Source: Pseudomonadota bacterium (GTDB lineage: Bacteria > Pseudomonadota > Alphaproteobacteria > Acetobacterales > Acetobacteraceae). Taken from it: DNA of 64,000 nucleotides. The stretch lies in the NCBI GenBank assembly GCA_021816925.1, contig JAKAWQ010000004.1:1-64000 (forward strand). The letters are read 5' to 3'. The number at the start of each line of letters is the position of its first letter. Position 1 is the stretch's first letter. Of the stretch, positions 3,928 through 58,062 are shown in pieces. Under the pieces are notes generated by a model. The model ran no database searches. It had not been told where the DNA came from and saw only the letters and a program-made list of their open reading frames with translations. Made by a program: the position numbers and the translations under genes.

Positions 3928-3941
3928 TTGATCTAGATCAA
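3928..3941. promoter_or_regulatory. FNR-type box upstream of the symporter operon
   Basis: TTGATCTAGATCAA is a perfect TTGAT-N4-ATCAA palindrome, the FNR/FixK-type recognition sequence. Its centre is about 108 bases before the DUF3311 start at 4043, a position compatible with activation under low oxygen. Two further perfect copies lie in the respiratory cluster at 50442 and 53561. No Crp/Fnr-family gene is in the window. Confidence 0.7.
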
Positions 3942-44299: not shown

Positions 44300-44842
44300 T
44301 CACTTCTGCTCGACTTCGTTCCTTAAGCGGATCGGGTGGCGCGTGAGGGCACGCCGGCAATGCGCAACAATGAAATCGGCGACGGCGTCGATGTCGCCCA
44401 GATCCACCACGGGCAAGGAGCAATCCGGCAGAGGCTCGCCGCTCAGCACGGCCACCACGTGGCGGTCGTGGGGATGGATCAGGGGTTGACCCGCGTCGCG
44501 GCGATGGAGTTCGAGCTTGTCGTGGCTCCCGCGCCCGAAGCCTTCGATAATCAGGAGATCGACCGGCGCCATTTGCCGCGTCAACTCTGCAACGTCCGGC
44601 TCGGGTTCGCCGCGCCTCTCATGCATGAGCGCCCAGCGCCGAGCGGAGGCAATGAGGACTTCCGTCGCTCCGGCCTGCCGGTGGCGGAAGGTATCCTTGC
44701 CCGGCTGGTCGATGTCAAAGTCACGACGCGCGTGCTTCATCGTCGAAACGCGATAGCCGCGGTGCACGAGTTCCGGGATCAGGCGGACGAGCAGCGTCGT
44801 CTTGCCGCTGCCACTCGGCCCCGCCACGCCGATCACCTGCAT
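44300..44842 (-). CDS. mobB: Molybdopterin-guanine dinucleotide biosynthesis adaptor MobB
   Basis: 180 residues. The P-loop is VIGVAGPSGSGKTTLLVRLI, followed by VSTMKHARRDFDIDQPGKDT with the conserved KHA and D motifs, and LLIIEGFGRGSHDKLELHR. MobB is a GTPase that assists MobA in attaching GMP to molybdopterin. ATG 44842 follows GGAGA. Its position at the downstream end of a cluster with two bis-MGD-type molybdoenzymes is fitting. A 78-base gap separates it from the preceding membrane-protein gene. Confidence 0.9.
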   Translation of the reverse strand: MQVIGVAGPSGSGKTTLLVRLIPELVHRGYRVSTMKHARRDFDIDQPGKDTFRHRQAGATEVLIASARRWALMHERRGEPEPDVAELTRQMAPVDLLIIEGFGRGSHDKLELHRRDAGQPLIHPHDRHVVAVLSGEPLPDCSLPVVDLGDIDAVADFIVAHCRRALTRHPIRLRNEVEQK

Positions 44843-44920
44843 CGGCGATATCTCCCGTTCGCTTGCCGCGCTCCCTGGGTTGGCCGGCGGCACGCGCGTC
44901 GCCTCACGGGAGGGGGATCT

Positions 44921-45421
44921 CTATGTGCGCGCAGAGACCGCCTTCGGCACCTTTTTCGCCGGCGTGAGCCACATGTCGTAGAGGCTGAGGAGGATCATGA
45001 CGGCAAGCCCGAGCGCGAACAGGCCGCCTCCGACGATCACAACATAGACGTAGACGACCGCTATTTTCGTCAGAAACCATCCGCTGACGTCAACCAGGAA
45101 TGCCCCGAAAGGAAGCACCGACCAGAAGATCTTCCAGCCCGGTGGAAAGCTCGAGTGGACAAAGATGAACCCGATCACCCAGAACACGGAAAACAAACCC
45201 AGCATATGAATGTGTGCCAGGGAGACCAGGGTGACCACGCTGACCCCTGGGCCGTAATAGGTGGCGGCGATATCGTGCGGCGTGATCACGTAGCTGCCGC
45301 CCACGCCGACATGGCTGACGTCAAGATAGAAAAGGCCCATCAGCACCGCCAAGCCGGCAAAGATTAGAGCGGCGGTTGTGAAGGCCTTCATTTCTACGGA
45401 CAGTTCCGTCAGTGGTTTCAT
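44921..45421 (-). CDS. Four-helix membrane protein of the respiratory cluster
   Basis: 166 residues with helices at about 14-33, 62-86, 93-114 and 118-145. Histidines occur in DVSHVG, ITPHDIAATYY and SLAHIHMLG, the last pair inside helix 2, so heme b or quinone binding is conceivable. The N-terminus (MKPLTELSVEMKAFTTAA) is nearly the same as that of the cytochrome at 48848, also at DNA level. It is the last gene of the minus-strand cluster before mobB and follows the TorA-like gene by 196 bases. I do not recognise a named family; it may anchor or oxidise/reduce the soluble cytochromes. Confidence 0.65.
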   Translation of the reverse strand: MKPLTELSVEMKAFTTAALIFAGLAVLMGLFYLDVSHVGVGGSYVITPHDIAATYYGPGVSVVTLVSLAHIHMLGLFSVFWVIGFIFVHSSFPPGWKIFWSVLPFGAFLVDVSGWFLTKIAVVYVYVVIVGGGLFALGLAVMILLSLYDMWLTPAKKVPKAVSART

Positions 45422-45617
45422 GATCCTGCCTCCGTCATTTTTCTACCCCCGCAAGCATTTGCGTTTCGGAGCCGATTCTTACCGGAATTGGCCCCCGAGA
45501 TTTCCCCGCGTGGTTGCGACCGTCTGAGGATGGATGCTGTTCCTGCTCGGCTCGGCCCTGCGACCGCGGCGGAACGAGGCCGTGCGGCCGCGGTCGACCG
45601 CATCGCGCGGGCGCGGC

Positions 45618-48146
45618 CTATTTCTTTGCCAGGGGGCGAATGGACGGAGGTGAAAACGCCGTTATCGCCGGAGGCTCGCCGGCAAACTTTTCCACGTCGG
45701 CCAGCACGGTGTTCGCGATGTTTCCTTGGGCCAGACGCGAGGTTCCTTTGTCAAGCGTGAGAACATTGATCAGGCCGTGTTTGCAGAGCGGCCTGTCGGC
45801 CGGTGCGCGCGCCGGGTCGTACCACGCACCCTCGTGCAGGATCAGCACCCCGCGGCGGACCCGCGCAGTCAGAAGCGCGCCGGCAAGGACCTCTCCTCGG
45901 TCGTTGAAAACGCGTACGATGTCGCCGTTCCCGATGCCCCGGGCTTGCGCATCATCGGGGTTGATCCATAACGGCTCACGGGCGTTGACCTCGTACCAGG
46001 CGCGTATCCATGTGTTGTCGAGCTGCGAATGCAGCCGGTAGCGTGGGTGCGGCGAAAGGACATGGAACGGATAGCGTTTCGCCAACGGACTGCCGAGCCA
46101 CTCGACGGGCGCCAGCCAAGTGGGATGCGGTGGGCAATCGTCATAGTGGTAACCCGCGATGGCCTGCGAGTAGATTTCGATCTTGCCAGAGGGGGTTCCG
46201 AGTGGATTGAGCGCCGGATTCGCGCGGAACGCCGCATGGCGGACGTACATGCGGGCGCTTTCGGGAATCGGAAACTCGGCGTATCCGGATGCCCAGAAGG
46301 TATCAAAATCCGGCATCGTAATCTTGGCAGTTGCGGCCTCTTTCTGGGTGGCTTCATAGAAGGAACGCAGCCATTTCATTTCACCCTTGCCCCCGGTGAA
46401 TGCAGGCGCGAAGCCTAGGCGTTCCGCGATGGCAGAAAGGATGTCGAAATCGCTCTTTGCTTCGAACACAGGCTCGACGACCTTTTTCATTGCGACCAAG
46501 TACTGTCTGGAATAGGCGCCGGAAAATTCGAGATCGTTACGTTCGAAGGTGGTCGTCACCGGCAAGACGATATCGGCGAACTTGGCGGTTGCCGTCCAGA
46601 ACGGATCCTGGACGATGACGACTTCCGGACGGCGCCATGCCTCGACGACCTTATTGGTCTGCCAGAGGTGCGTCAGGGGATTGCCGCCGGCATAGTAGAT
46701 AAGGCGAATATCCGGGTAGGTGATGGTGGTGCCGTTGTAGGGCACCTGCTTGCCGGGATTGAGAAGCATGTCGGCGAAGCGCTCAAAGGGGAGCGAGCTT
46801 TTAACCGGATTGGGGACGCCCGAAATGCCCGTGACGCTCGGCGCGCGCGCGACGAGATCTCCGCCGTTGTCGTAATGGTAACTGACGCCGTAGCCGCCGC
46901 CGGGAAGGCCGATCTGGCCGATCATCGCGGCGAGCGTGATGAGCATCCAATAGGCCTGTTCGCCGTGATCGGCCCGCTGGATCGCATAGCCGGAGATGAT
47001 CATGGTACGATGGCGGGCCATCTGTCGGGCCAGACCCTCGATCGTCCCGGCATCGATGTCCGTGATTGCCGCTGCCCAGGCAGGAGTTTTCGGCTGCCCG
47101 TCGCTCCGCCCTGAGAGATAGTCAAGGAACTTGTCGAATCCGACCGTGTAGTTTGCGATGAACTTGCGGTCAGCGAGGTTTTCCTTGTGCAGGATGTAAG
47201 CGAGGCCGAGCATGAGCGCGGTGTCGGTATTGGGTCGTGGCGCGATCCAAGTGGCATCCAGATAGCGCGCCGTAGCCGTGAGCCGGGGATCAAGACTCAC
47301 AACCTGCGTCCGTTTCGCTGCAACCTTGCTGCGGAAGCGCTCGAGCGCGCCATATGCATAATGATCCGGCGGATGGGTTCCGATCTGGTTGTTCTTCAGG
47401 AGATCCGCGCCCAGTAGTACGAGAAGTTCGGTATGCTGCTCGATCATGGGCCAAGCTGTCTGTTCGTCATAGACTTCCGATCCGCCGACCACATGCGGAA
47501 GGATGACCATGGCCGCAGCAACGCTCGGATCACCGGTGCAGTCCGTGAAGCCCCCATACAGGCCGAGCATGCGGCGGACGAGCCCGGAGGCGTTGTGCAG
47601 GAGGCCGACCGACTGCCAATCGGCCGTGCCGGGGAAAATACTCGCGTTGCCATGACTCGTGCGCACGCGTTTGAGCTCGCCCGCGACCAGATCGACCGCT
47701 TCCTGCCAGCTGACCCGAACGAAGTCCTCCTGGCCCCGCCCTTTCCCGCCGGCTTTGTAGCCTTTCTCGAGGAAGCTTCGGCGCACGGCCGGATAGCGCA
47801 CACGGCTCGGCGCGTAGACGCGGTCGGCACAGGCCTGGATCATCGGCGTCGGGTGACGATCCTTGGCGAAGGCCGTGGCCCGCGTGAACCGCCCGCCCTC
47901 CACGTGGGCGTTGATCATGCCCCAGTGGCTGGCAGTCGGCACCACTTTCTGTTCGAGCAGATTACCGCCCACCGGCGGGGTCCACCCCGAGGTTCCGGCC
48001 GCCGCCCGCGCCACTCCGGGCGCGAGGAGCAGCCCGCCGCCCAGGGTTCCGGCCCCTTTGAGCAGAGTGCGGCGGGATGAGCTTACGGGCGTCCCTTTGG
48101 GCGTGTCGCTGCCGACATCTTGCAGCTTTTTCTCATTACCGGGCAT
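45618..48146 (-). CDS. TorA/DMSO-reductase-like molybdopterin oxidoreductase
   Basis: 842 residues. TAT signal SSRRTLLKGAGTLGGGLLL. There is no N-terminal iron-sulfur cysteine motif, as in DMSO/TMAO reductases. SHWGMINAHVEGGRFTRATA opens the enzyme, LHNASGLVRRMLGLYGGFTD precedes CTGDPSVAAAM with the serine aligned to the molybdenum ligand of the TorA/DorA group. Later come GYAIQRADHGEQAYWMLITL, IYYAGGNPLTHLWQTNKVV and HVLSPHPRYRLHSQLDNTW. It should reduce (or oxidise) an S- or N-oxide-like substrate in the periplasm, receiving electrons from the neighbouring cytochromes. True substrate is unknown. Confidence 0.85.
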   Translation of the reverse strand: MPGNEKKLQDVGSDTPKGTPVSSSRRTLLKGAGTLGGGLLLAPGVARAAAGTSGWTPPVGGNLLEQKVVPTASHWGMINAHVEGGRFTRATAFAKDRHPTPMIQACADRVYAPSRVRYPAVRRSFLEKGYKAGGKGRGQEDFVRVSWQEAVDLVAGELKRVRTSHGNASIFPGTADWQSVGLLHNASGLVRRMLGLYGGFTDCTGDPSVAAAMVILPHVVGGSEVYDEQTAWPMIEQHTELLVLLGADLLKNNQIGTHPPDHYAYGALERFRSKVAAKRTQVVSLDPRLTATARYLDATWIAPRPNTDTALMLGLAYILHKENLADRKFIANYTVGFDKFLDYLSGRSDGQPKTPAWAAAITDIDAGTIEGLARQMARHRTMIISGYAIQRADHGEQAYWMLITLAAMIGQIGLPGGGYGVSYHYDNGGDLVARAPSVTGISGVPNPVKSSLPFERFADMLLNPGKQVPYNGTTITYPDIRLIYYAGGNPLTHLWQTNKVVEAWRRPEVVIVQDPFWTATAKFADIVLPVTTTFERNDLEFSGAYSRQYLVAMKKVVEPVFEAKSDFDILSAIAERLGFAPAFTGGKGEMKWLRSFYEATQKEAATAKITMPDFDTFWASGYAEFPIPESARMYVRHAAFRANPALNPLGTPSGKIEIYSQAIAGYHYDDCPPHPTWLAPVEWLGSPLAKRYPFHVLSPHPRYRLHSQLDNTWIRAWYEVNAREPLWINPDDAQARGIGNGDIVRVFNDRGEVLAGALLTARVRRGVLILHEGAWYDPARAPADRPLCKHGLINVLTLDKGTSRLAQGNIANTVLADVEKFAGEPPAITAFSPPSIRPLAKK

Positions 48147-48380
48147 CGATTGTCTCCATCGCTTGCGGTTCCGGGCGTTTCGTCCGGGGCCTGTCTGTCA
48201 GGCGAGTTTCGCGCCCATGGAAGGTTGGCGCGGCGGTTTTCGACCAGCCGCCTGATCCGCATGACATCCCACCGTCGCCGCGCGGCCAAGGCGCCTCGCG
48301 CGATCGAACGCGCGCACGCCGAGCATCTTTACCTTGGATGGGCAATGATCCCTGCCCTCTCCAGCGTTCTTGCTGGTTCA

Positions 48381-48707
48381 TCATTTCGTTGCGACCGGGC
48401 CGCCCCTGATCGGGATACTTGCGAAACAGGCAGAAAGATCCTGCATCTGCCGCCGGGAAATCGGCTTGGCCATCTCGTTCATGAGGGGGTTGGTCCGCGT
48501 CCCTTTCTTGTATGCCTCGAGCTGGGTCAGAAGGTACTGGTAATTCTGGCCCGCCAGGTTTGGCATATTGGTAGCGGTCGCGATGCCATTGTTGGCGTGG
48601 CGGGCCGCGCATTGGGCGCGGATCGCGGCGCTCGCTTTTGCGCCGGGTGCAGCGGACGCCGGAAGGACGGCCAGACCCAGTCGTGCAATAGAGGTCTCTA
48701 AACGCAT
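48381..48707 (-). CDS. Degenerate cytochrome c paralogue lacking the second heme cysteine
   Basis: 108 residues from ATG 48707 (AAAGGA upstream). It is a close copy of the cytochrome at 49500: both share NGIA.ATNMPNLAGQNY, QLEAYK.GTR and NPLMNEMAKP. Where the paralogue has the heme site CAACHG, this one has CAARHA, a TGC/TGT to CGC change, so covalent heme attachment by both vinyl groups is lost. Its leader is also shorter (SIARLGLAVLPASA). The frame is otherwise intact and keeps the Met ligand region. It is either a dying duplicate or a protein that binds heme through one cysteine or not at all. Confidence 0.7.
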   Translation of the reverse strand: MRLETSIARLGLAVLPASAAPGAKASAAIRAQCAARHANNGIATATNMPNLAGQNYQYLLTQLEAYKKGTRTNPLMNEMAKPISRRQMQDLSACFASIPIRGGPVATK

Positions 48708-48847
48708 GTAGGCGATCCTTTCATCGCTTGCCCGGATCGCGCGTTGCGGCACCATCGGGGGCGCGTGAACGCGCTGATCGGAAGTAATGGGGCGGTGTCT
48801 GCTTCATTGCTCCATGCCTTCCGTCATGAGAGGCGAGCTCCGCCGCG

Positions 48848-49486
48848 TCATTGCGCCCGCGCGTGGGCCTGGAGGTATTTCGTGACGAGAGCCACCTGCG
48901 CGGCGTCGAGGCCAGCGTTCTTCACCATGGCCCGGAGGATGCTCGGCCATTGATTTGCCGTGAACTCGGCGGGGTTACGGAGAGCGTGGCAAACGCTGCA
49001 GCGTGTCGCGAAGAGTTTGCCGGCCGTCGCCCAGACGGTGGCAACACTGGGCACGACGGAACTCACGGCCACCCATCCGGAAAGTTCCACATGTCGCCAG
49101 ACCGTTCCGTAGCTGTCCCGTTGCTGGCCGAGGACAGTCCGGTGCGATAGGCCGGCTTGCCCGAGAGTGGCGAGAATGATGCGGAGATCCGGAGCCTGAT
49201 AGACAACCGCGCCTCCGCCCTGTTCGGACCACCCCTCGATGGTGATTTCTTCCCGTGCAGCGCCGTTCGCCGGAGGGGTGGCGACGGAGAGTGGGGTTCC
49301 GGGCGTGAGCGAAGCAATCTGGGCGGGCCCGGCGGCAGTCTGGTAGAGCGGGGCGATGGCGGAGGGATAGACCGTCGCGGCGGGTGACGCATGGCTGGTC
49401 ACGGCCGAGGCGAGCAGGGTTGAGGTCAAGGCTGCGGCGGTTGTGAAAGCCTTTATTTCTACGGACAATTTCCTCGGAGGTTTCAT
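48848..49486 (-). CDS. Monoheme cytochrome resembling the C-terminal domain of TorC/DorC
   Basis: 212 residues. A leader (KAFTTAAALTSTLLASAVTSHA) precedes a beta-rich domain with ITIEGWSEQGGGAVVYQAP and TVWRHVELSGWVAV. The C-terminal heme domain is KLFATRCSVCHALRNPAEFT, then ANQWPSILRAMVKNAGL and VTKYLQAHARAQ. This arrangement matches the monoheme C-terminal part of TorC/DorC pentaheme cytochromes, but the tetraheme NapC-like part is absent. It probably hands electrons to the TorA-like enzyme encoded downstream. GGAAATT-like context before ATG; 13 bases separate it from the preceding cytochrome gene. Confidence 0.75.
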   Translation of the reverse strand: MKPPRKLSVEIKAFTTAAALTSTLLASAVTSHASPAATVYPSAIAPLYQTAAGPAQIASLTPGTPLSVATPPANGAAREEITIEGWSEQGGGAVVYQAPDLRIILATLGQAGLSHRTVLGQQRDSYGTVWRHVELSGWVAVSSVVPSVATVWATAGKLFATRCSVCHALRNPAEFTANQWPSILRAMVKNAGLDAAQVALVTKYLQAHARAQ

Positions 49487-49499
49487 CGCTCGACCTTCG

Positions 49500-49862
49500 T
49501 TATCTTCCCGTCCGCGGGTGCATTCGGCCAGGCGGACCGACCCTGATCGGGATGCTCGCGAAATAGGCTGCCAGATCCTGCATCTGCTGCTGGGAAAGCG
49601 GCTTGGCCATCTCGTTCATGAGCGGATTTTTCCGGGTTCCGTTTTTGTACGCCTCAAGCTGGCTCAGAAGATAGGCGTAATTCTGCCCTGCCAGGTTCGG
49701 CATGTTGGTGGCGACAGCGATCCCATTGTTGCCGTGACAGGCGGCGCATTGCGCCGAAATCGCCGCGCCGGCCTTGGCGCTCGGCGCGGCGTAGGCCGGC
49801 GCAACCGCCCCCAGCGCGCCGCAGACAAGCAATCCGAATGTCCCGGCAAAGGAAGTACGCAA
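49500..49862 (-). CDS. Small class I cytochrome c
   Basis: 120 residues, best read from TTG 49862, which follows AAGGAG at eight bases and gives a proper signal peptide (TSFAGTFGLLVCGALGAVAPAYA). The heme site CAACHGNNG is intact and the Met ligand probably lies in NEMAKPLS. Size and motifs (MPNLAGQNYAYLLSQLEAYK) match cytochrome c553/c4-half type soluble carriers. It lies directly before the TorC-like cytochrome gene (13-base gap), and a decayed copy follows at 48381. Likely a periplasmic electron shuttle of the cluster. Confidence 0.85.
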   Translation of the reverse strand: MRTSFAGTFGLLVCGALGAVAPAYAAPSAKAGAAISAQCAACHGNNGIAVATNMPNLAGQNYAYLLSQLEAYKNGTRKNPLMNEMAKPLSQQQMQDLAAYFASIPIRVGPPGRMHPRTGR

Positions 49863-49911
49863 TGCAAGTTCTCCTTCATGGCTTGCCCAGAGCATCAAGG
49901 CTGATGCCCGC

Positions 49912-50337
49912 TCAGTTGTCGGGCGCCCCTTCCTCGATCCATCTGCGAATGGTCTCGACGTCGGCGGACGAGAGCGGTTTGCCGACCGGCGGCATCACAA
50001 GGTTCTTGAAGGCGTGCTTGCCGTTTCCGAGGACCGAGATCAGCGGGCTGAGTTCCGGACGTCGGGGGATGACGGCAACGCCAAAGAAGGAGCCGGCCAT
50101 GACGCCCTGGTAGCTCCGCAAGTCGAGGCCGATGGCCTTGTAGCCGACGCCGCTCGGGCTGTGACAGACGACGCAGTGCCGCTCGAAGATCGGCAGGACT
50201 TGCTTCTTGAAACTTGTCGATGCTGGGGCTGCCTCTACCGCGGGCGTGGCAAGCGCGGATGCCAAAGTCATGCCTCCCAAGACTGCGGCGACAATTGCGA
50301 TGGCCTGAAAGTTGCTTGTTCGCAAGAAGCCGACCAT
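49912..50337 (-). CDS. Membrane-anchored or exported cytochrome c
   Basis: 141 residues from ATG 50337, preceded by GAGGGAGAG. The N-terminus (FQAIAIVAAVLGGMTLASAL) is a leader or anchor. The heme site is FERHCVVCHSPSG, followed by LDLRSYQGVMAGSFFGV, and the tail MPPVGKPLSSADVETIRRWI has the Met ligand context. The spacing and SYQGVMAG motif match single-heme domains often annotated as c-type cytochromes near membrane-bound oxidoreductases. A perfect FNR-type box lies 111 bases upstream of the start, so this gene probably opens a transcript separate from aioA. Confidence 0.8.
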   Translation of the reverse strand: MVGFLRTSNFQAIAIVAAVLGGMTLASALATPAVEAAPASTSFKKQVLPIFERHCVVCHSPSGVGYKAIGLDLRSYQGVMAGSFFGVAVIPRRPELSPLISVLGNGKHAFKNLVMPPVGKPLSSADVETIRRWIEEGAPDN

Positions 50338-50441
50338 CTCATCTCTCCCTCGCCTCGGAACCAACAAATTGTCGCCCCATACTGACTCTGATCTTTTTTA
50401 TTCAACCGCCTGTCGTCAAGCTCATGGCGGCCGCTCGCGCC

Positions 50442-50455
50442 TTGATCGGCATCAA
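50442..50455. promoter_or_regulatory. FNR-type box before the cytochrome gene
   Basis: TTGATCGGCATCAA is a perfect TTGAT-N4-ATCAA palindrome between the aioA-like stop and the cytochrome start at 50337. It suggests low-oxygen induction of the downstream cytochrome and TorA-like genes. Confidence 0.7.
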
Positions 50456-50508
50456 GATTGCACGCGTGCCTGATCATATCTCCGCGGCCTGCCCGCCCGG
50501 CCCGACCC

Positions 50509-50524
50509 CCGGGGTGTACCCCGG
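50509..50524. terminator. Strong GC hairpin after the aioA-like gene
   Basis: CCGGGGT-GT-ACCCCGG forms a seven-base stem 31 bases beyond the stop of the minus-strand molybdoenzyme gene. No T tract is present, but it could end or attenuate that transcript before the FNR-controlled promoter. Confidence 0.4.
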
Positions 50525-50554
50525 CGATCGGGCCTGAACAGGATGGGCGGCGCG

Positions 50555-52897
50555 TCAGCTCTTGCGGACATTCACGGCCACCATCGTGTCAACGTCGCCG
50601 ACAATGGGAACCATCCGCAGTGCCATGACGCGATTGACGAGCTGGCCGGCCTTGGGGAACATGCCGCCGCCGGATGCTGCAACGACGCCGCTCAGCACGC
50701 CGTCGGTGACGCGCGCAACGCCGGCGCACGACCCGTACCGCGACTCGACCGTGATGGGATCGCCGTCGGCGATGTGGCGCCCGGCTGCGTCGGCAGGATG
50801 GATCCAGACCACCGCGTCGGGCTGGCGTTCGTTCACCATCGGCTTGTCCCAATAGGTGTAGCCGGTGTTCCATAGCTCGTTCAGCCGGAAGTCGATCATC
50901 ATGAGGGGATGTCGGTTGTCGATCTCGGCCCATTCGTTCGCGGCGGGATTGAAGCTCTTGAGATGCGCGAAGCTCTCGAGGTGGATCTTGCCGTCCTTGG
51001 TGGGGAAGCGTTTGCCCATCAGCTTCTCCCACTCGTTCGTATACATCCGGTCTGTCGAGCGGCCGTTGACGGAGGGCCAGAGGAGGCCGTCTGTGCCGGC
51101 CTTGAGCAGTGCTTCCCAGGTCAGATCCCGCACCCTGGCGTCGCGCATGCGGATCTCGTCCCAGACCTCCACGGGCGTGCTCCAGTCGTAGCCCTTCAGC
51201 CCCATGCGCCTGGCCACCTGCGCCGGGATCCACCAGTCAGGCTGTGCGCTTCCCGGCGGGTCCATGAACTTCTGATTGACCGCCAGTCGCCGTGTGTCGC
51301 TCGACTGCAGGAGATCGGCCTCTCCCCACGTTGCCGCCGGGAAGATGACGTCGGCGGCGGCGTCCATTTCGGTGTGGATGCGGTCCTGCACGATGAGGAA
51401 GCCGGCAGCGATCAGGGACCGCAGCTTGGACTGACCGGGATATTGCCGGAAGACGTTGGTACCCAAGGCCCACGTTGCCTTGACCTGGCCTTTCTCCAGC
51501 CCGTCCCAGTAGTTGAGCTGCTTGCGGCCTGGTGGCAGATCGGGCGTGTAGACCGAGCCGTCCGGGTGCCCGCCGCCGCGCGCGGTGCAGGAACCAGGCT
51601 TGCCGAGGTTGCCGAGCAGGCTGCCGAGTACGGCCATGGCGACTTGGCTGTCGAAAGAGGACATCTGATGCATGACGCCCTTCTCCAGCAGCATCATGGT
51701 GTGGCCGCGGCGCTCGACGAGAAGGTCCACAGCGCGGCGAATCTTTTCGGCTGGCACGCGGGTCTCCTTGGCGGCACTTGCGATCGTGAAACGATCGTTC
51801 TGCACCACCCCGCGAACGGTCTCGAGACCGACAGCGTACTTCGCCACGAAGGCCTTGTCGTAGCTGCCGCGGCTCAGGACCTCCCGCACCATGGCGCCGA
51901 GCAGGATCGGGTCGGTGCCGGGTTTGACTTGAAGGTGCAGGCCGCCGTGCTCCTCGGCGAGCTGGGATTGCTGACTGCGGCGCGGGTCAATGTCGATGTG
52001 GGCGGCATTACCGCTCGCGAGGTTACTGAAGAACCGGTAGTACCAGATACTGGACGTCGAGTTGAGGTCCTTGCCGACGGTCACCAGCAGCTTGGTCAGG
52101 TCGAAGTCACCCTCGGTGAAGGAGTGCTTGCCGGCGCCGAGCACGGACTTCATGCCGCCGCTTTCGTTGTCGATGACCCAGCCGTTGCCGGCGAACATCG
52201 TCGAGCCCAGACCCTCGACCCAGAATTTGCGGATGGCATAGGTGGGCAGCTCGTAGAGCCAGTCGCCATAGCAGAGCGCGAGGGAGTTGGGGCCGTACTT
52301 GGCCTTGAGGCTCGCAAGCTTCTCTGCCGTGAACGAGACGGCTTCATCCCAGCTCACCGCCTGCAGCGGCGAGCCCTTGCCTCCCTTGCGGATCATCGGC
52401 TCGGTGAGACGCTTGCTGTACGAGGGCAGGTTCTTCGAAAAGAGCGTCAGCGCATTGGTCCCGCCGCGCACCGAGAAGTCGCCCTTGTTGATCACGCAGT
52501 CCTTGTCAGGAATGACCGCGATATACACGGGCTTGCCGCCCTTTTCCGCCGGGACGACGAAGCTCGAGGAATACCACTCGCCCGAAAGCGGCGGCGCGTA
52601 CGCTCCTTTCGGCCTGATTCCCGTGCCCTGTGACCAGACGCGGACCTTATAGCCGCAGTTGACGTTGCAATACTGGCAGCGGATGTTGAAGGTTTCCGCG
52701 TGGGGAGGCGGGAGCTCGAGGCAAGGCTCCTGCACCGCGGAGTTTGCACGTGCAGTCCCGCCCGGAATGAGTGCCGCTCCGGCCGCCGCCGCAGCCGGCA
52801 GTGCCGCGAGCCGGAGCATGTTGCGCCGATCCGTGGGCTCGGACGGCGCGATGTTCCTATCGGCTTCGCGGTCCTGGCTTCTGTCGATTCCTGCCAT
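50555..52897 (-). CDS. AioA-like molybdopterin oxidoreductase large subunit
   Basis: 780 residues. The [3Fe-4S] motif of the arsenite-oxidase group, C-x2-C-x3-C, is seen in RCQYCNVNCGYKVRVW. Other AioA-like stretches: FSVRGGTNALTLFS, AAHIDIDPRRSQQSQLAEEH, FLIVQDRIHTEMDAAADVIF, ATWGEADLLQSSDTRRL and NQKFMDPPGSAQPDW. The region equivalent to the molybdenum-ligand segment has no Ser, Cys or SeCys in an obvious ligand position, as in AioA. A weak twin-arginine stretch (DRRNMLRLAALP) begins the protein. AioA oxidises arsenite; related enzymes (Arx, Idr) act on other oxyanions, so substrate is not settled. It lies 12 bases after the Rieske gene. Confidence 0.8.
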   Translation of the reverse strand: MAGIDRSQDREADRNIAPSEPTDRRNMLRLAALPAAAAAGAALIPGGTARANSAVQEPCLELPPPHAETFNIRCQYCNVNCGYKVRVWSQGTGIRPKGAYAPPLSGEWYSSSFVVPAEKGGKPVYIAVIPDKDCVINKGDFSVRGGTNALTLFSKNLPSYSKRLTEPMIRKGGKGSPLQAVSWDEAVSFTAEKLASLKAKYGPNSLALCYGDWLYELPTYAIRKFWVEGLGSTMFAGNGWVIDNESGGMKSVLGAGKHSFTEGDFDLTKLLVTVGKDLNSTSSIWYYRFFSNLASGNAAHIDIDPRRSQQSQLAEEHGGLHLQVKPGTDPILLGAMVREVLSRGSYDKAFVAKYAVGLETVRGVVQNDRFTIASAAKETRVPAEKIRRAVDLLVERRGHTMMLLEKGVMHQMSSFDSQVAMAVLGSLLGNLGKPGSCTARGGGHPDGSVYTPDLPPGRKQLNYWDGLEKGQVKATWALGTNVFRQYPGQSKLRSLIAAGFLIVQDRIHTEMDAAADVIFPAATWGEADLLQSSDTRRLAVNQKFMDPPGSAQPDWWIPAQVARRMGLKGYDWSTPVEVWDEIRMRDARVRDLTWEALLKAGTDGLLWPSVNGRSTDRMYTNEWEKLMGKRFPTKDGKIHLESFAHLKSFNPAANEWAEIDNRHPLMMIDFRLNELWNTGYTYWDKPMVNERQPDAVVWIHPADAAGRHIADGDPITVESRYGSCAGVARVTDGVLSGVVAASGGGMFPKAGQLVNRVMALRMVPIVGDVDTMVAVNVRKS

Positions 52898-52909
52898 TTT
52901 TCCCTCCCC

Positions 52910-53413
52910 TCACTTGTCGTCGCACGCGAGGCCATAGACGAGGCCCGAACTCACCCCCTGCACCGGAGCAACGCCGACCGCATAGACGGCCCCGTTCTCG
53001 ACCTTGAGTGTGATCATCGGCAGGCCCTCGATCGCCGGCCCGGCGAGTGCGCGTCCCTGCCGCGCGGGATCGTAGGTGCTGTTGTGGCAAGGGCAGACGA
53101 GAAGCTTGCTGGCCTGATCCAGCACAACCGGGCAGCCCATGTGCTGGCAGAGCGTGCTGTAGGCGACGATGGAACGCCCAGGCCCCACGCCACCGGGTGC
53201 CGCCTTGCCGAGCTCGAGGAGCATCGCGGCCTGCGAGTCCGGGTAGAGGAAGGAAATGCCGGCCCACGGCTTGATCGCGGCGAGGCTCGCGACCTTTGTC
53301 GCTGGAGCAGCCGCGCTGGCAAACCGACTGTCGACCGCAGCCACGCCGAGGACCCCGGCCGTCGCGGTGGCTCCGGTCCGAATGAATCTGCGCCTTGTTG
53401 TCTTTCCATCCAT
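52910..53413 (-). CDS. AioB-like Rieske small subunit
   Basis: 167 residues. TAT leader TTRRRFIRTGATATAGVLG. The Rieske [2Fe-2S] ligands are in CQHMGCP and CPCHNSTYD, with the disulfide cysteines of the AioB type also present. It ends with GLVYGLACDDK, similar to the YG-terminus of AioB proteins. The Rieske subunit carries electrons from the molybdenum subunit to a cytochrome c. GGAGGGAC lies before ATG. An FNR-type box at 53561 lies about 154 bases upstream. Gene order (small then large subunit) is as in aioBA operons. Confidence 0.85.
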   Translation of the reverse strand: MDGKTTRRRFIRTGATATAGVLGVAAVDSRFASAAAPATKVASLAAIKPWAGISFLYPDSQAAMLLELGKAAPGGVGPGRSIVAYSTLCQHMGCPVVLDQASKLLVCPCHNSTYDPARQGRALAGPAIEGLPMITLKVENGAVYAVGVAPVQGVSSGLVYGLACDDK

Positions 53414-53878
53414 GATAGTCCCTCCGTCCTTGACCCGGAGACCCCGCGAGCATCGCCGGTCGGGAGTGCCGAATCGCCTGCCTCGGCGACCACCGGAGCT
53501 CTTCCGAGCCGCGCTCGCGGCGCCTTTTTATTTTTCTACGAGCATCGCCCGGACATTTCCTTGATCCAGATCAAGGCGGAATTGCCATCTTGAACCGCAT
53601 AAGGAAACTTTTTAATGAGGAATGGCGTGCCGGGAGCGGGGTGGCGACGGGCAGGATGCCGGCATGCGGGAAAAAGGGGAACATGAGCGCGCTTCGCCCC
53701 GTGCTCGGCAGTCAGGCCTTGGCGGGGATTGCGGCGCTCGATCTCGAAGCGGGCAACCCGGTGCCGATGGCGCAGATGATGGATGCGTGCACCCAAGTGC
53801 CGCACCACCTGCGGAAGTTCGCGCTCGTCCTCTCGGCAATGAGGTGCTTCTCGGCCCCACGTGCCATCGGGCGAGGGT
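53414..53878. other. Control region and gap before the aioB-like gene
   Basis: About 460 bases with no supported gene. The AT-richer stretch near 53520-53620 contains the FNR-type box and probably the promoter. The remaining open frames are Arg/Pro-rich and unconvincing. Confidence 0.5.
53561..53574. promoter_or_regulatory. FNR-type box before the aioBA-like operon
   Basis: TTGATCCAGATCAA is a perfect TTGAT-N4-ATCAA palindrome about 154 bases upstream of the Rieske gene. It implies control by an FNR/FixK-type regulator responding to oxygen limitation, unusual for classical arsenite oxidase operons that use AioSR and sigma-54. Confidence 0.75.
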
Positions 53879-54487
53879 TCAGTGCGGCGGCGGAGGCGGC
53901 GGCGCGTTCGGCACGTTGAAGGCAAGAAAGCGGAACACGCGCCAGCTTCCGTCCGGATCGTGGCGCATCACGAACATCGCCGGCTCCGTGATGACGGTCT
54001 TCGCGGCTTTGCCCTTGCCCGTGACGGTGAGAGTCCAGACGATGCGAACCACCGCGAGATCCCCCGAAATGAGAATCTCGCGGATGTTCGGGGAGTAGCT
54101 GTAGCGCACAGCGGAATCGGCGAGCGCGCTCCTGAGATGGCCGCAAAGCGCACTATAGGTGCCGGGTTCAGTGCCGAAATCGTAATGGAGGTCCTTGGCG
54201 AAGAGATTGCACACCGTTTCGGACTGCCGCGCGTTGAAGGCATCGGCCCAGCCCGCGATGGCATTGCGGATGGCGGTGTCGTCATTCTCGCGTGCCGCGG
54301 GCGCGGCGGGCGCGGAGCCGAGCGGGGGTGCCAGCGGCACCGGTTGGCCGGGCGCCGCATTGGCCGGCGGCTGATAAGGCGGCGGCGGTGCATAGGCAGG
54401 CGGCGCCGGCTGCCCCGCCGCAAGGCCGAACGGGGCGAGAGCGAGCACGGGCGCGAGTGCAAAGGCCCAGACGAGCCGGCGGGACAT
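53879..54487 (-). CDS. Exported SnoaL/NTF2-like protein with proline-rich linker
   Basis: 202 residues. Signal peptide LVWAFALAPVLALAPFGLAAG, a Pro/Ala-rich linker to about residue 65, then an NTF2-like domain: AIRNAIAGWADAFNARQSETV, DLHYDFGTEPGTYSALC, REILISGDLAVVRIVWTLTV and WRVFRFLAFNVP. The fold serves as an enzyme or ligand-binding domain; no catalytic residues can be assigned. The protein ends in a run of prolines. It is transcribed away from the aioB promoter region and ends before it. Confidence 0.72.
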   Translation of the reverse strand: MSRRLVWAFALAPVLALAPFGLAAGQPAPPAYAPPPPYQPPANAAPGQPVPLAPPLGSAPAAPAARENDDTAIRNAIAGWADAFNARQSETVCNLFAKDLHYDFGTEPGTYSALCGHLRSALADSAVRYSYSPNIREILISGDLAVVRIVWTLTVTGKGKAAKTVITEPAMFVMRHDPDGSWRVFRFLAFNVPNAPPPPPPH

Positions 54488-54515
54488 GCGGGGTCTCCGG
54501 AAGGTTTTCCCGCCT

Positions 54516-55721
54516 TCAGTGAAGCGCCGGGGCGCGGGCCAAGGGAAGAGTGGGCGGTGCGGTCACGGGGGCGGTGCATTTCGGGCAGGCCGCTTCGTGG
54601 CAGGCGCGACAGAAGGGCCGGCCGCAGGCGGCGCAAGGCGCGAGCCCCGCGGGGCAAAGGAGGTGCAGCGCCTCGTCGCACACGAGCCGCGGCGGCGCAC
54701 GGGCGCGGCTCCATTCGCAAGGCGGGGGATCGAGGCGGCGGGTGAGCGGATTCCAGTCGAGCCGCAGCATGCGGTCGGCCTTGCGGCGGCGGAGCTGCAC
54801 GGTGAGGCGGTGCACCGGGAGGACGACTTCCAGCGTCTGCGTCCAGGCGAGTGCCACGTTGAGCGCATATTGGCGCGCAAGGTCCTCGAGCCTCGCCTGG
54901 TATTCGCGGACGATCGCGGCGATGCGGGCTTCCTCCCGCCTGCGCGCGGGATCGGCTTCCGGGAGCGCGCCGAGGCGGCGTGCCGCCTCGCGATGGAGAT
55001 CGTTGTGAAAGCCGTGCAGGCGATCCTGGTCGCGGCCGAGACGGCGGTTGAGGCCTTCGAGGAAGGGCGCGAGCGCCGCATCGAGCCGCGGCGGCAGGGC
55101 GCGAGAGAGAAGTGCCAGCAGGCGCGCGCGGTCTTCCACGGCGGGAAGATCGCGCGACGGGTCGAGCGGCGGCCCGGGCGGCGGATCGGGCGAGACGGGT
55201 TCGAGCGCGGGCGGATCATCGATCAGCGCGCCGGTGGCTGAATTGAGAGCGAGACGGAGCAGGCCCTCCCGCTTCTCGTCGGCGATCGCGGTGAAGCGGA
55301 ACTCGAAGAAAAGAAGGTACGTCCAGGCCGAAGCGGCCTCGAGCAGGCGGTAGGTTGCGTTTTCGAGCGGGAGCGCGTGCGCGAGCGCGCGTTCGGGGTC
55401 GGCGGGCGGGCGGAAGGAGGGGGTGAGGACGCATCGGGCGGCGCGGCCACGCCCGCCGAGCAGCCGGGCGAACCGCTCGAGCCAGTCCGCCTCGAGCCCC
55501 ACGCGGTGCGCCCCCGACGCCACGCGGACGCCGAACCCGAGGCGGGAGAGTTCGGGCACGCCGAGAGCCTCCTGCACCGGCGGCGGTGCCAGCACGTCGA
55601 GCGTTTCGGGTCCCGACGCTTCGACCAGCGCGCCGGCGGCACCGAGCAGGTCGGCCGCGAAGCGCTGCATGCGGCCGGCGGCGAGCGCCGCAGCCGCGGG
55701 CCCGTCCACCTCAGGCGGCAT
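54516..55721 (-). CDS. Uncharacterised protein with C-terminal zinc ribbon, partner of the SNF2 helicase
   Basis: 401 residues from ATG 55721, overlapping the helicase stop by 11 bases. The first 150 residues include an alpha/beta domain with ERFARLLGGRGRAARCVLTP. The middle is helical (RLEDLARQYALNVALAWTQT). The end is a zinc ribbon with CPAGLAPCAACGRPFCRACH and ACPKC. Translational coupling to the helicase suggests one complex. I know no named family; a role in transcription recycling or in DNA protection is conceivable. Confidence 0.65.
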   Translation of the reverse strand: MPPEVDGPAAAALAAGRMQRFAADLLGAAGALVEASGPETLDVLAPPPVQEALGVPELSRLGFGVRVASGAHRVGLEADWLERFARLLGGRGRAARCVLTPSFRPPADPERALAHALPLENATYRLLEAASAWTYLLFFEFRFTAIADEKREGLLRLALNSATGALIDDPPALEPVSPDPPPGPPLDPSRDLPAVEDRARLLALLSRALPPRLDAALAPFLEGLNRRLGRDQDRLHGFHNDLHREAARRLGALPEADPARRREEARIAAIVREYQARLEDLARQYALNVALAWTQTLEVVLPVHRLTVQLRRRKADRMLRLDWNPLTRRLDPPPCEWSRARAPPRLVCDEALHLLCPAGLAPCAACGRPFCRACHEAACPKCTAPVTAPPTLPLARAPALH

Positions 55722-58062
55722 CGAGGTCTGTTCCGAAGAGAGTCTCGTCGAGTGCCTTGGCGTCTTCGTAATCGCGGCGCGCGGCAAGCAGATCCGACTC
55801 GATGCCGGCGAAGGCGGTGGCGCGGTCCGCTTCGGTCTCGGCAAGCCAGGCTTCGAGCACGAGGGTGGAGAATTCTCCCCGCTCCTCGAGCTCGCCCAGG
55901 ATCGCGCCGACCTCGCCCACCACCAGCTCGAACATGTGGAGCTTCTCGTCGAGAATGCGCAGCACCTCGTCCTCGACGGTGCCGGCGGCAACGAGGTTGA
56001 AGACGAACACTTCGCGCACCTGGCCGATGCGGTCGATGCGGCCGATCCGCTGCTCGATCGCCATCGGGTTCCAGGGAATGTCGTAGTTGATGAGCGTGTT
56101 GCAGAATTGCAGGTTCCGCCCCTCCCCGCCCGATTCGGTTGTCAGCAGCACGGGTGCGGAGTCGCGGAAGAAAGTGATCGCCGTGTCCTTCTCGGGGCCG
56201 TTGAGGCTGCCGTGGAACTGCGCCGCCCCGATGCCGCTCTGCCCGAGCAGCGCGGCAAGATGGGCGAGGCTCTCGCGACGATGGACGAAGACGATCTTCT
56301 TCTCGCCGGGATTGCGGGCCAGGAGCGCCAGCAGGGCGGCATCCTTGGCGCCGGCCGGGATCGCGCGGTAGCGGGCGGCGAGTGCCGCGAAGAGCGGCTC
56401 TTCGGGGTGGCGCCCGGCAGCGCGCGCGAGTGCCGCGGCCGCGGCGGGGGGCGATGAGCCGGCGGCGGCGAGGAGGTGGGCAAGCGCCAGGCGATCGGAT
56501 GCCGCGGCGGCGCGGGCACGCACAAGGCGCGTGAGCTCGGCATAGCAGGCGGCCTCGGCCGGACCGGGCTGGGCGCGCTCGGTCGCGGCGTGGCGGCGCG
56601 GCAGATGGACCGCGGCGAGGGCGCGGGTGTTGCGCACCATCACTCCGCGCATGAGGTCGCGCAGCCGGTCGCGGTTGACGGGCTCGCGCGGTTTGCCGGG
56701 CAGCATGTAGGCGGCGCGGAACTCCTTCACCGTCTTGAAGATGCCGGGCTTGAGCAAGGTGAGCAGGTTGTAGAGCTCGATCAGGTTGTTCTGCACCGGC
56801 GTCGCCGAGAGCAGCAGGAGGAAGCGCTTGCGGAGACTGTTGACGAGCCGCCAGGAGGCGCTCGCCTGATCGCGTAGGTGATGCGCCTCGTCGACGACGA
56901 CGATGTCCCAGGACTGCGCCGCAAGCAGCTCGGCATGCTCGCTCCGCCGGGCCGTGGCGAGGGAGGCAATGATGCGGGGCCCGGCCCAGAATGACCCGGG
57001 GTCGGCGCGCAGCGCCGGGTCGTAGGTGGTGGCGCAGGAGATCACGAATTTCTCTGCAAGCTCCTCCCGCCATTGGCCGACCAACGAAGCCGGAGCGAGG
57101 ATCAGCATCCGCTCGGCCATGCCGCGCAGGGCATATTCCTTGAGCACCATCCCGGCCTCGATCGTCTTGCCGAGGCCGACCTCGTCGGCCAGCAGGACGC
57201 GGCCGCGATACTGGCGCAGCACCTTGCGCACCGTTTCGATCTGGTACCAATGCAGGACGACGCCGCTCAGAGTGGGAAGGCAAAGCAGTTCGTCGAAACC
57301 TTCGACGAGGCCGAGCCGGGCCAGCTCGGCGCGGAGCGCAAACCACACCGGATCGCCGTCTGCGGCTTTGAACAAAATCTCGTCGGGATTGACGAACTCG
57401 CGGGTGATGGTGAGCGGCGCGGCAAGGCAGGGCAGATCGGGAAGTGCGGGTCGGGAGGGTGCCGGTGCGTTCGCCGCTGCCGGCTTGGCCCGCGGCGGCG
57501 TGGCGGAGCGCGGCTGCGGCAGCGTGGCAGGGCGCAGCTTGGGACGCGGCGGGGAGGCGAGACGGATGCGGCGATGGGCGATCTCGGTGAGCTGCCGGCG
57601 AAGCCAGGGCCACAGCGGCGGATCGCCGACGAACACGCGAGAGGCGGGGGCGAAGCCGGCGAGGCCCTCGCTCTGCAACATGGCGGCGGCGCGGGTGAAT
57701 TGGCCGTGGCCAGCGGCGGCGAGAGCGGAGAGCAGGGCGTGGGGTTTCCCCGGCACGTAGCGCTTGGTGTAGTGCCGGAGCAGAACGAGCGCGCGCGGCG
57801 CATCGCGCGCGGAAAGCGCGGCGAGCGCGCCGAGCAGCAGAAGCTCGGGATCGGCCGGGCAGACCTGGAGCGCCGTCGCGGCCACGCGTGGCGCGCCGGC
57901 ATCACCGAGGGCGAGCGCCTGACGCACTCGGGCAATCCAGAGCTCGGCCTCTTCCGGCGCGCCGCCGGGTGCATCGTCGTCCGCCGCACGATCAAAACCC
58001 GGCAACCGGGCCTGCCCCAGGGGCTGCCCAGCCAAGTCACGCCACCGTCGGTCGTGGTTCAC
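55711..58062 (-). CDS. SNF2-family DEAD/DEAH helicase, RapA-like
   Basis: 783 residues from GTG 58062, which has GGGGGA upstream. A TPR-like helical N-terminus (residues 20-150) precedes the helicase core: VLHWYQIETVRKVLRQYRGR, motif I LLADEVGLGKTIEAGMVLKE, motif II IVVVDEAHHLRD, motif III LLLSATPVQNN, KKIVFVHRRESLAHLAALLG, and motif VI QRIGRIDRIGQ. Such SNF2 ATPases move along double-stranded DNA or recycle RNA polymerase (RapA). The following gene overlaps it. The longer frame to 58209 would run into the phd operator and lacks a ribosome site. Confidence 0.85.
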   Translation of the reverse strand: MNHDRRWRDLAGQPLGQARLPGFDRAADDDAPGGAPEEAELWIARVRQALALGDAGAPRVAATALQVCPADPELLLLGALAALSARDAPRALVLLRHYTKRYVPGKPHALLSALAAAGHGQFTRAAAMLQSEGLAGFAPASRVFVGDPPLWPWLRRQLTEIAHRRIRLASPPRPKLRPATLPQPRSATPPRAKPAAANAPAPSRPALPDLPCLAAPLTITREFVNPDEILFKAADGDPVWFALRAELARLGLVEGFDELLCLPTLSGVVLHWYQIETVRKVLRQYRGRVLLADEVGLGKTIEAGMVLKEYALRGMAERMLILAPASLVGQWREELAEKFVISCATTYDPALRADPGSFWAGPRIIASLATARRSEHAELLAAQSWDIVVVDEAHHLRDQASASWRLVNSLRKRFLLLLSATPVQNNLIELYNLLTLLKPGIFKTVKEFRAAYMLPGKPREPVNRDRLRDLMRGVMVRNTRALAAVHLPRRHAATERAQPGPAEAACYAELTRLVRARAAAASDRLALAHLLAAAGSSPPAAAAALARAAGRHPEEPLFAALAARYRAIPAGAKDAALLALLARNPGEKKIVFVHRRESLAHLAALLGQSGIGAAQFHGSLNGPEKDTAITFFRDSAPVLLTTESGGEGRNLQFCNTLINYDIPWNPMAIEQRIGRIDRIGQVREVFVFNLVAAGTVEDEVLRILDEKLHMFELVVGEVGAILGELEERGEFSTLVLEAWLAETEADRATAFAGIESDLLAARRDYEDAKALDETLFGTDLDAA

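Follow-up and report, generated by a model that had tools for sequence, protein, structure and literature searches.

We found in the window, that is, the whole stretch of 64,000 nucleotides analysed here, a real gene cluster that is an uncommon combination of two variants of known enzyme kinds. Every gene of the cluster, as identified from the ORF list with Pfam and NCBIfam models, lies on the minus strand, and two separable modules are joined here: module A, consisting of a Rieske protein and an AioA-like molybdenum subunit, and module B, which contains a TorA-like enzyme. The cluster suggests a respiration without oxygen of an undescribed kind, and we infer that both enzymes use small c-type cytochromes in an anaerobic periplasmic respiration. 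In the excerpts of open-access full text that were searched, PMC4643136 included, the combination of the two modules was found described nowhere, which agrees with the statement of the initial annotation that no operon with this content had been described.

Organization of the cluster

The sites and genes are listed below in the order of transcription, beginning with module A.

53561-53574, minus strand: perfect FNR-type palindrome, 147 nt 5' of the Rieske start codon
52910-53413, minus strand: Rieske [2Fe-2S] small subunit of module A (PF00355; TIGR02694 113.3 bits, cut-off 95.65)
50555-52897, minus strand: AioA-like bis-MGD catalytic subunit of module A (TIGR02693 261.2 bits, under the cut-off of 359.05)
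50442-50455, minus strand: perfect FNR-type palindrome, 74 nt 5' of the TTG start of the first cytochrome gene
49912-50367, minus strand: PSCyt1-like monohaem c-type cytochrome (21.4 bits, just below the Pfam cut-off of 22)
49500-49898, minus strand: monohaem cytochrome c553-like protein, CAACH (PF00034 41.5 bits, cut-off 21.3)
48848-49486, minus strand: stand-alone TorC C-terminal-domain cytochrome (TorC-C), CSVCH (TIGR02162 108.7 bits, E 4e-31, full-length cut-off 478)
48381-48755, minus strand: decayed c553 copy with the haem motif lost (CAARH), from DNA comparison with the c553 gene
45618-48146, minus strand: TorA/DorA/BisC-type enzyme (TIGR00509 1045.7 bits, above the cut-off of 1017.55)
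44921-45421, minus strand: predicted membrane protein of 166 aa with about four helices, without family match
44300-44893, minus strand: mobB, MGD cofactor adaptor (PF03205 157.2 bits)
45369-45459, no strand: duplicated 91-nt segment (74%), second copy at 49434-49524

The initial annotation had described the AioA-like subunit with its Rieske partner, the TorA-like enzyme, cytochromes, a membrane protein and mobB as one composite cluster, and all of these were confirmed at the above coordinates. They lie on one strand as claimed, but the cluster, counted between the first box and the far end of mobB, measures about 9.3 kb and not ten kilobases. Similarly, of the four proteins that had been called cytochrome-like, three carry a CxxCH motif, but the one at 48381-48755 has CAARH in its place. 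Tat-like signals were seen by eye in the Rieske protein, the AioA-like subunit and the TorA-like enzyme. The G+C content is 0.60-0.66 over 45-54 kb and about 0.71 at 54000-58000, so that it is lower in the cluster than on its right side.

FNR-type boxes

Exact copies of TTGATNNNNATCAA were found at three sites of the window (3928, 50442 and 53561), whereas 0.00 were expected from 100 shuffles. When one mismatch to the FNR-type consensus was allowed, four sites were found against 0.50 expected. The genome to which the window belongs is a draft of 4.3 Mb in 170 contigs that is 98.4% complete, and it holds 22 exact sites against 0 for the reversed pattern. By these counts the boxes reported at the cluster are real. 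Seven of the 22 lie on the contig of the window (C30, 136 kb), at 3928, 50442, 53561, 89989, 96269, 118032 and 131749, for which the binomial tail under a uniform model is 3.6e-6. One site (C163:2163) stands, by eye, directly before narGHJI-like genes and has a narK-like gene on its other side; several others precede genes without an evident anaerobic link, or no called gene. Because two starts within the cluster carry an FNR-type box, the cluster probably forms two transcription units.

At another locus (L085:5989-6481) we observed a box touching the called start of a 159-aa frame, which consists of a repeated 16-residue unit (AQSGGEGGTTNGHPAY).

The catalytic subunit of module A

In a 24-row tree, the AioA-like subunit of the window formed one clade (100/100) with its relatives from a plasmid of Bosea sp. 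AS-1 and from two MAGs. The 11 AioA rows, which include the copy on contig C84 of the same genome and five other relatives matching at 1e-30, formed a separate group without the window subunit (100/99). AioA and two IdrA-type rows were also grouped (97/98), again with the window subunit outside; these two rows were those of Azonexus hydrophilus NCP973, where two peroxidase genes adjoin, and of a Vibrio of similar sequence. That is, the phylogeny proposed in the initial annotation put the large subunit outside the characterised AioA and outside AioA plus IdrA. In this tree, which holds only two IdrA-type rows, leaves out ArxA and includes two long-branched rows, the exact placement of the clade relative to AioA/IdrA, Cytobacillus firmus and the formate/nitrate enzymes was weak (68/50). 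By sequence, the subunit is a member of a rare clade near AioA and IdrA.

The alignment showed that the cluster motif CxxCxxxC, with Ser in place of the fourth Cys (3Fe-4S type), is kept. The Mo-ligand position is occupied by Val in the window and by Phe in Bosea and both MAG relatives, and a Cys, Ser or Asp ligand is therefore lacking. The AioA motif IHNRPxYxSE is replaced by GNGW[VF]xDxES in all four rows of the clade (GNGWVIDNES in the window). The His of the AioA pocket has become Gly, and the Glu and the R..GGH motif are kept; the roles of these pocket residues are those which we take to hold for AioA from the structure literature. By eye, Tat-like signals start three of the four catalytic subunits of the clade, and none was seen in the AioA and IdrA N-termini inspected. 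On the Bosea plasmid, at L016:11873-14629, the annotated start of the AioA-like protein is closely preceded by a Tat-like motif in a different reading frame. Structure prediction of the window subunit with three rows gave a pLDDT of 31.8.

Module A thus resembles AioBA in its Rieske protein, which is over the AioB cut-off, in the CxxCxxxC plus Ser motif, in the lack of a Cys, Ser or Asp ligand to Mo, and in keeping the pocket Arg and His of the second motif. In contrast, the catalytic subunit scores below the AioA cut-off, falls outside the AioA clade, has GNGW[VF]xDxES for IHNRPxYxSE and carries a Tat-like signal itself, and an FNR-type box is present. The name 'AioBA-like' in the initial annotation therefore holds as a distant similarity only, and not as AioA. 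With IdrABP1P2, module A shares a Rieske protein and a Mo subunit without ligand, so that it may be a reductase, but it differs in having no P1/P2 peroxidases among the scanned genes, in its separate clade and in its other pocket. As candidate identities, the canonical arsenite oxidase AioA was rejected by the TIGR02693 score (261.2 against 359.05), the tree position and the pocket motif; IdrA by the tree position, with two IdrA-type rows only, and by the lack of idrP1/P2 among the ten genes scanned; and ArrA by a model score of 37.6 bits, far below the cut-off of 1600.

In the excerpts available, a superfamily study describes AioA as lacking an amino-acid ligand and the placement of IdrA and AioA as uncertain (PMC10100899), and a paper on iodate reductase shows an 'unknown clade' near AioA (PMC8692401). 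Our search of open-access full text found nothing on AioA pocket residue numbers or on AioA-like clades. Among the Rieske-linked molybdoenzymes, module A would represent a branch next to AioA and IdrA that is rare and uncharacterised.

Relatives and neighbourhoods of module A

AioA-like relatives at 1e-30 were found in 6 of 60 relatives, the own genome included. At 1e-50, the only match among 385 genomes of the class was the own genome, and a two-row profile at 1e-80 matched three of 397 family genomes (the own one, G688 and G736) and one of 398 phylum genomes (the own one). These class, family and phylum scans scored at most two candidates per genome, and misses are therefore possible. A first scan of genome contigs with the single AioA-like protein as query found nothing, and a second with query A2 gave two loci. 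These were the MAG relatives, at locus L020 of a Rhodobacteraceae bacterium (55%) and at locus L021 of Hyphomicrobiales bacterium OFTM307 (50%). In named collections, a relative at 57-58% was found on a conjugative plasmid of Bosea sp. AS-1; the next plasmid match was only 31%, in Cytobacillus firmus M7, where pst and ars genes adjoin.

The Bosea locus comprises a LuxR-type regulator, the Rieske and catalytic subunits, a 102-aa frame, a MoeA-type gene and two MFS transporters. The 102-aa frame, which follows the catalytic gene, is unannotated and has one CxxCH. In the OFTM307 locus, copper genes (by eye), an outer-membrane-like protein and an NHL propeller lie upstream, and a LuxR-type regulator followed by an aquaporin lies downstream. 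The Rhodobacteraceae contig is 3 kb long and holds the Rieske and catalytic genes only.

According to excerpts of PMC8453088, Bosea sp. AS-1 oxidises Sb(III) and As(III), aioA and aioB but not anoA were detected in it, and those who described it suspected that it has additional oxidation genes. A relative of module A is thus carried by a conjugative plasmid in an organism that oxidises antimonite and in which the genes for this oxidation are incompletely known. We regard this phenotype as a lead, not as proof, for a metalloid substrate of module A. Induction of aioB by Sb(III) is described in an excerpt on Bacillus sp. S3 (PMC7193398).

The own genome also possesses a canonical arsenite oxidase pair on a contig of 4.1 kb (C84; L015, L051), which scores 981 bits with TIGR02693 and adjoins the Acidiphilium enzyme in the tree. 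In G736 (L022:6369-8959) and G688 (L019:1013-3118) we observed a 701-aa catalytic subunit whose N-terminus is of the 3Fe-4S type and whose Mo-ligand position is occupied by Cys (NGRLCAAS). These subunits fall outside both AioA and the window clade and are on contigs other than those of module B. A Rieske gene stands beside the subunit in G736; the contig of G688 is too short to show the neighbour. No ars gene and no cytochrome c peroxidase was found among the ten genes of the window locus scanned by Pfam.

The TorA-like enzyme of module B

The TorA-like enzyme passes the TIGR00509 model of the S/N-oxide reductase subfamily (1045.7 against 1017.55) and scores below the TorA models (TIGR02164, 857.9 against 1465; PRK15102, 906.1 against 909). 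The closest solved structures are Rhodobacter DMSO reductases. Module B was also found, on contigs of their own, in G688 and G736, two genomes of another genus of the same family. The TorA-like enzymes of these genomes are 70% (G688) and 69% (G736) identical to that of the window, the membrane proteins 54 and 57%, and the TorC-C proteins 43 and 43%; the c553 of G688 is 43% identical. The contig of G736 starts inside the membrane protein and so ends before c553. In these genomes, c553 and the membrane protein face the TorC-C/TorA pair, and an exact FNR-type box is present (L056:8330 in G688, L057:4459 in G736). On L056, a 188-aa frame without Pfam match lies before TorC-C. A TorA/BisC-type match at 1e-150 occurs in 90 of 200 family genomes, the own one included; the 70% form must be rare, because the best match outside the own genome in that sample is 51-53% identical.

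With E. coli BisC as the root, a tree of 22 rows placed the three TorA-like enzymes in one clade (100/100). It was separate from the group of E. coli TorA and the TorA/DorA rows of Alphaproteobacteria (97/96) and stood beside cytoplasmic-looking rows of the family, the latter placement being weak (88/86); E. coli TorZ was the neighbour of E. coli BisC. The rows of module B, three in number, have TADW where 17 of 19 others have SYGW (the exceptions are E. coli TorA and one G525 copy), and GDPS where the E. coli and TorA/DorA rows mostly have GDYS; the Mo-ligand Ser is kept. The changed residues lie beside the molybdenum ligand, Tyr114 and Trp116 being the active-site residues considered in DorA, and a different substrate may follow from these changes.

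Compared with TorCAD/DorCDA, module B has the TorA-type enzyme with a Tat-like signal and the Mo-ligand Ser, and the C-terminal domain of TorC. It differs in that neither a NapC-type part nor an adjacent TorD was found, in that three cytochromes are separate proteins, and in the changes from SYGW to TADW and from GDYS to GDPS. Membership of TorCAD was rejected by the TorA cut-offs, by the lack of a PF03264 match and by the lack of an adjacent TorD.

A TorA-type gene follows a tri-haem protein in Cereibacter, Neorhizobium, Rhodovulum, Azospirillum and one of four G525 copies. These systems resemble module B in having ordinary cytochrome c domains and no NapC match, and in three of them (Cereibacter, Azospirillum and G525) the tri-haem protein contains the TorC-C match. 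On the other hand, their domains are fused (533-599 aa), and their TorA rows group with DorA/TorA and show the common SYGW. The ordinary five-haem form occurs in other relatives (PF03264 217 bits in G571). The novelty of a TorA-like system lacking NapC is tempered by this alphaproteobacterial precedent. Module B of the window is a split version of this tri-haem arrangement, with other cytochromes.

Cytochromes, membrane protein and electron donor

The TorC-C protein covers only the C-terminal part of the TorC model, from position 188 to 380 out of 387. No NapC/NirT-type protein (PF03264) was matched in the 98.4% complete draft genome, in a scan of which the E. coli control was positive, and the sole TorD-family hit (PF02613) is at the narJ position of the nitrate reductase locus. 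This TorA-type system is of interest in that no NapC-like donor was found and its place is taken by separate monohaem cytochromes, together with a membrane protein that is uncharacterised.

In the excerpts of PMC11727998, E. coli TorC is described as a NapC-like four-haem part plus a monohaem C-terminal part, and the latter segment as reported only from DMSO/TMAO systems and proposed as the direct donor to TorA. In the binding studies cited there, TorC and its N-terminal part bound TorA strongly, but the C-terminal part alone did not, and the model of that paper places the C-terminal haem about 35 A from Mo. These two points, as given in the excerpts, disfavour a free TorC C-terminal domain as the sole donor.

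In G018, a haem-c form of the membrane protein is accompanied by a cytochrome that shares 44% identity with the PSCyt1-like one of the cluster, and a plasmid search with the latter gave two weak partial records. Going by general redox potentials, transfer of electrons from cytochrome c to an N-oxide is unfavourable unless the cytochromes of the cluster are of low potential. Searches of solved-structure sequences with TorC-C and with the membrane protein gave nothing useful.

The four-helix membrane protein with histidines of the initial annotation was upheld in that about four helices are predicted and an H-I-H and a further His are invariant in four sequences, but the structure prediction was poor and of low confidence (pLDDT 66.9, pTM 0.33). 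Among 13 genomes and records, three gave a match to the protein, namely the own genome, G688 and G736. At 1e-6 it matched two of 299 family genomes, the own one and G018; G688 and G736 were evidently outside this sample, because their proteins match far better than 1e-6. The G018 form is 262 aa long with an inserted haem c and adjoins c553-like genes and the PSCyt1-like cytochrome; the molybdoenzymes of the cluster were not found in the 10.4 kb around it, up to the contig end. Plasmid searches with the membrane protein and with the G018 form gave no match. At 1e-5, 43 of 200 phylum genomes matched (the own one, 38 of f188, three of f207 and one of f187), and a haem-c motif was present in all 19 best-scoring loci examined among these 43. 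These results indicate a widespread family without Pfam name, of which the window form lacks the haem insert. In at least four of the loci L090-L108 (L093, L095, L097 and L102), neighbours resemble, by eye, hydrogenase maturation genes.

Relation between the two modules

The initial annotation had treated the cluster as one joint system and had proposed a search for the same combination elsewhere. No other genome was found with the two modules adjacent, and each module occurs without the other alongside, so the view of one joint system was not borne out. No gene of module B was detected within the 20-22 kb that surround the relatives in Bosea and OFTM307, and the membrane protein of module B was not found in the Bosea plasmid or in the two MAG genomes.

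We tentatively favour, while giving it somewhat less than an even chance, a locus under an FNR-type switch that serves anaerobic or microaerobic respiration in the periplasm and combines two molybdenum modules with common periplasmic cytochromes. At low oxygen, a putative FNR/FixK-type regulator would switch on both units. Electrons would leave the quinone pool via the membrane protein or a putative bc1 complex for the small c-type cytochromes, and would pass through the stand-alone TorC C-terminal domain to the Mo(Ser) centre of the TorA-like enzyme, which may reduce an N- or S-oxide-like substrate. Module A, with its Rieske, 3Fe-4S and Mo centres, would convert a metalloid or oxyanion and exchange electrons with the same cytochromes; oxidation of a reduced metalloid that feeds the pool seems slightly more likely than reduction. 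This reading is favoured by the perfect box before each half and the genomic box at narGHJI-like genes, by the conservation of module B genes and box in G688 and G736, and by the literature on the TorC C-terminal segment together with the lack of a PF03264 match and the position of the only TorD hit at narJ. The support of the module A clade, the oxidation of Sb(III) and As(III) by Bosea sp. AS-1 and the aquaporin near the OFTM307 relative also speak for it. It is weakened by the lack of another genome with both modules adjacent, by the canonical AioBA elsewhere in the genome, which already covers arsenite, by the TorC binding result, by the poor membrane-protein model, by a possible misfit of the redox potentials and by the active-site changes of the TorA-like enzyme.

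Two independent anaerobic units that stand adjacent under one regulator, without common electron carriers, are a plausible alternative. Module A occurs without module B beside it in the Bosea and OFTM307 loci, and the reverse holds for G688 and G736; a separate box precedes each half, and the Bosea locus has a small c-type cytochrome frame of its own. Nevertheless, the halves of the cluster share strand and box type, and another kind of AioA-like subunit is encoded on other contigs of G688 and G736, although the number of genomes concerned is only three. The Rieske protein and the ligand-free Mo architecture shared with IdrA, together with FNR-type control, would fit a reductase of a high-potential oxyanion like iodate reductase IdrAB, but we think this rather unlikely, considering that no cytochrome c peroxidase was found among the ten genes scanned, unlike the Azonexus idr genes, and that tree position and pocket motif both separate module A from IdrA.

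It is improbable that module A is a second oxidase of antimonite or arsenite for detoxification, standing by chance beside a TMAO/DMSO-type reductase. The Bosea phenotype in the excerpts of PMC8453088, the aquaporin near the OFTM307 relative and the ars and pst genes beside the distant C. firmus relative (31%) point in that direction, but an FNR-type box precedes module A and no ars gene was found among the ten locus genes scanned by Pfam. The change of the pocket His to Gly, with residue roles as we presume them, also speaks against detoxification. A two-enzyme redox loop, as raised initially, is possible; in its full, self-contained form the AioA-like enzyme would oxidise a metalloid (e.g. 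antimonite), c553, the PSCyt1-like cytochrome and free TorC-C would carry the electrons on to the TorA-like enzyme for the reduction of an N- or S-oxide, and the membrane protein would be a side link to the quinone pool, and we consider this full form improbable. That the locus is decaying and has lost its function is very improbable: one cytochrome copy lacks its haem motif, but the other frames are open over their full length, the cluster-motif and Mo-ligand residues are kept and the boxes are perfect.

Duplications within the cluster

The two copies of the c553 gene, at 49500-49898 and 48381-48755, are 79% identical in DNA over 267 nt. In addition, the membrane-protein gene begins within a 91-nt segment that recurs (74%) where the TorC-C gene begins. 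Since c553 adjoins the membrane protein in G688, and in view of both repeats, the simplest account is that a partial duplication of the c553-membrane-protein pair gave TorC-C its new 5' end.
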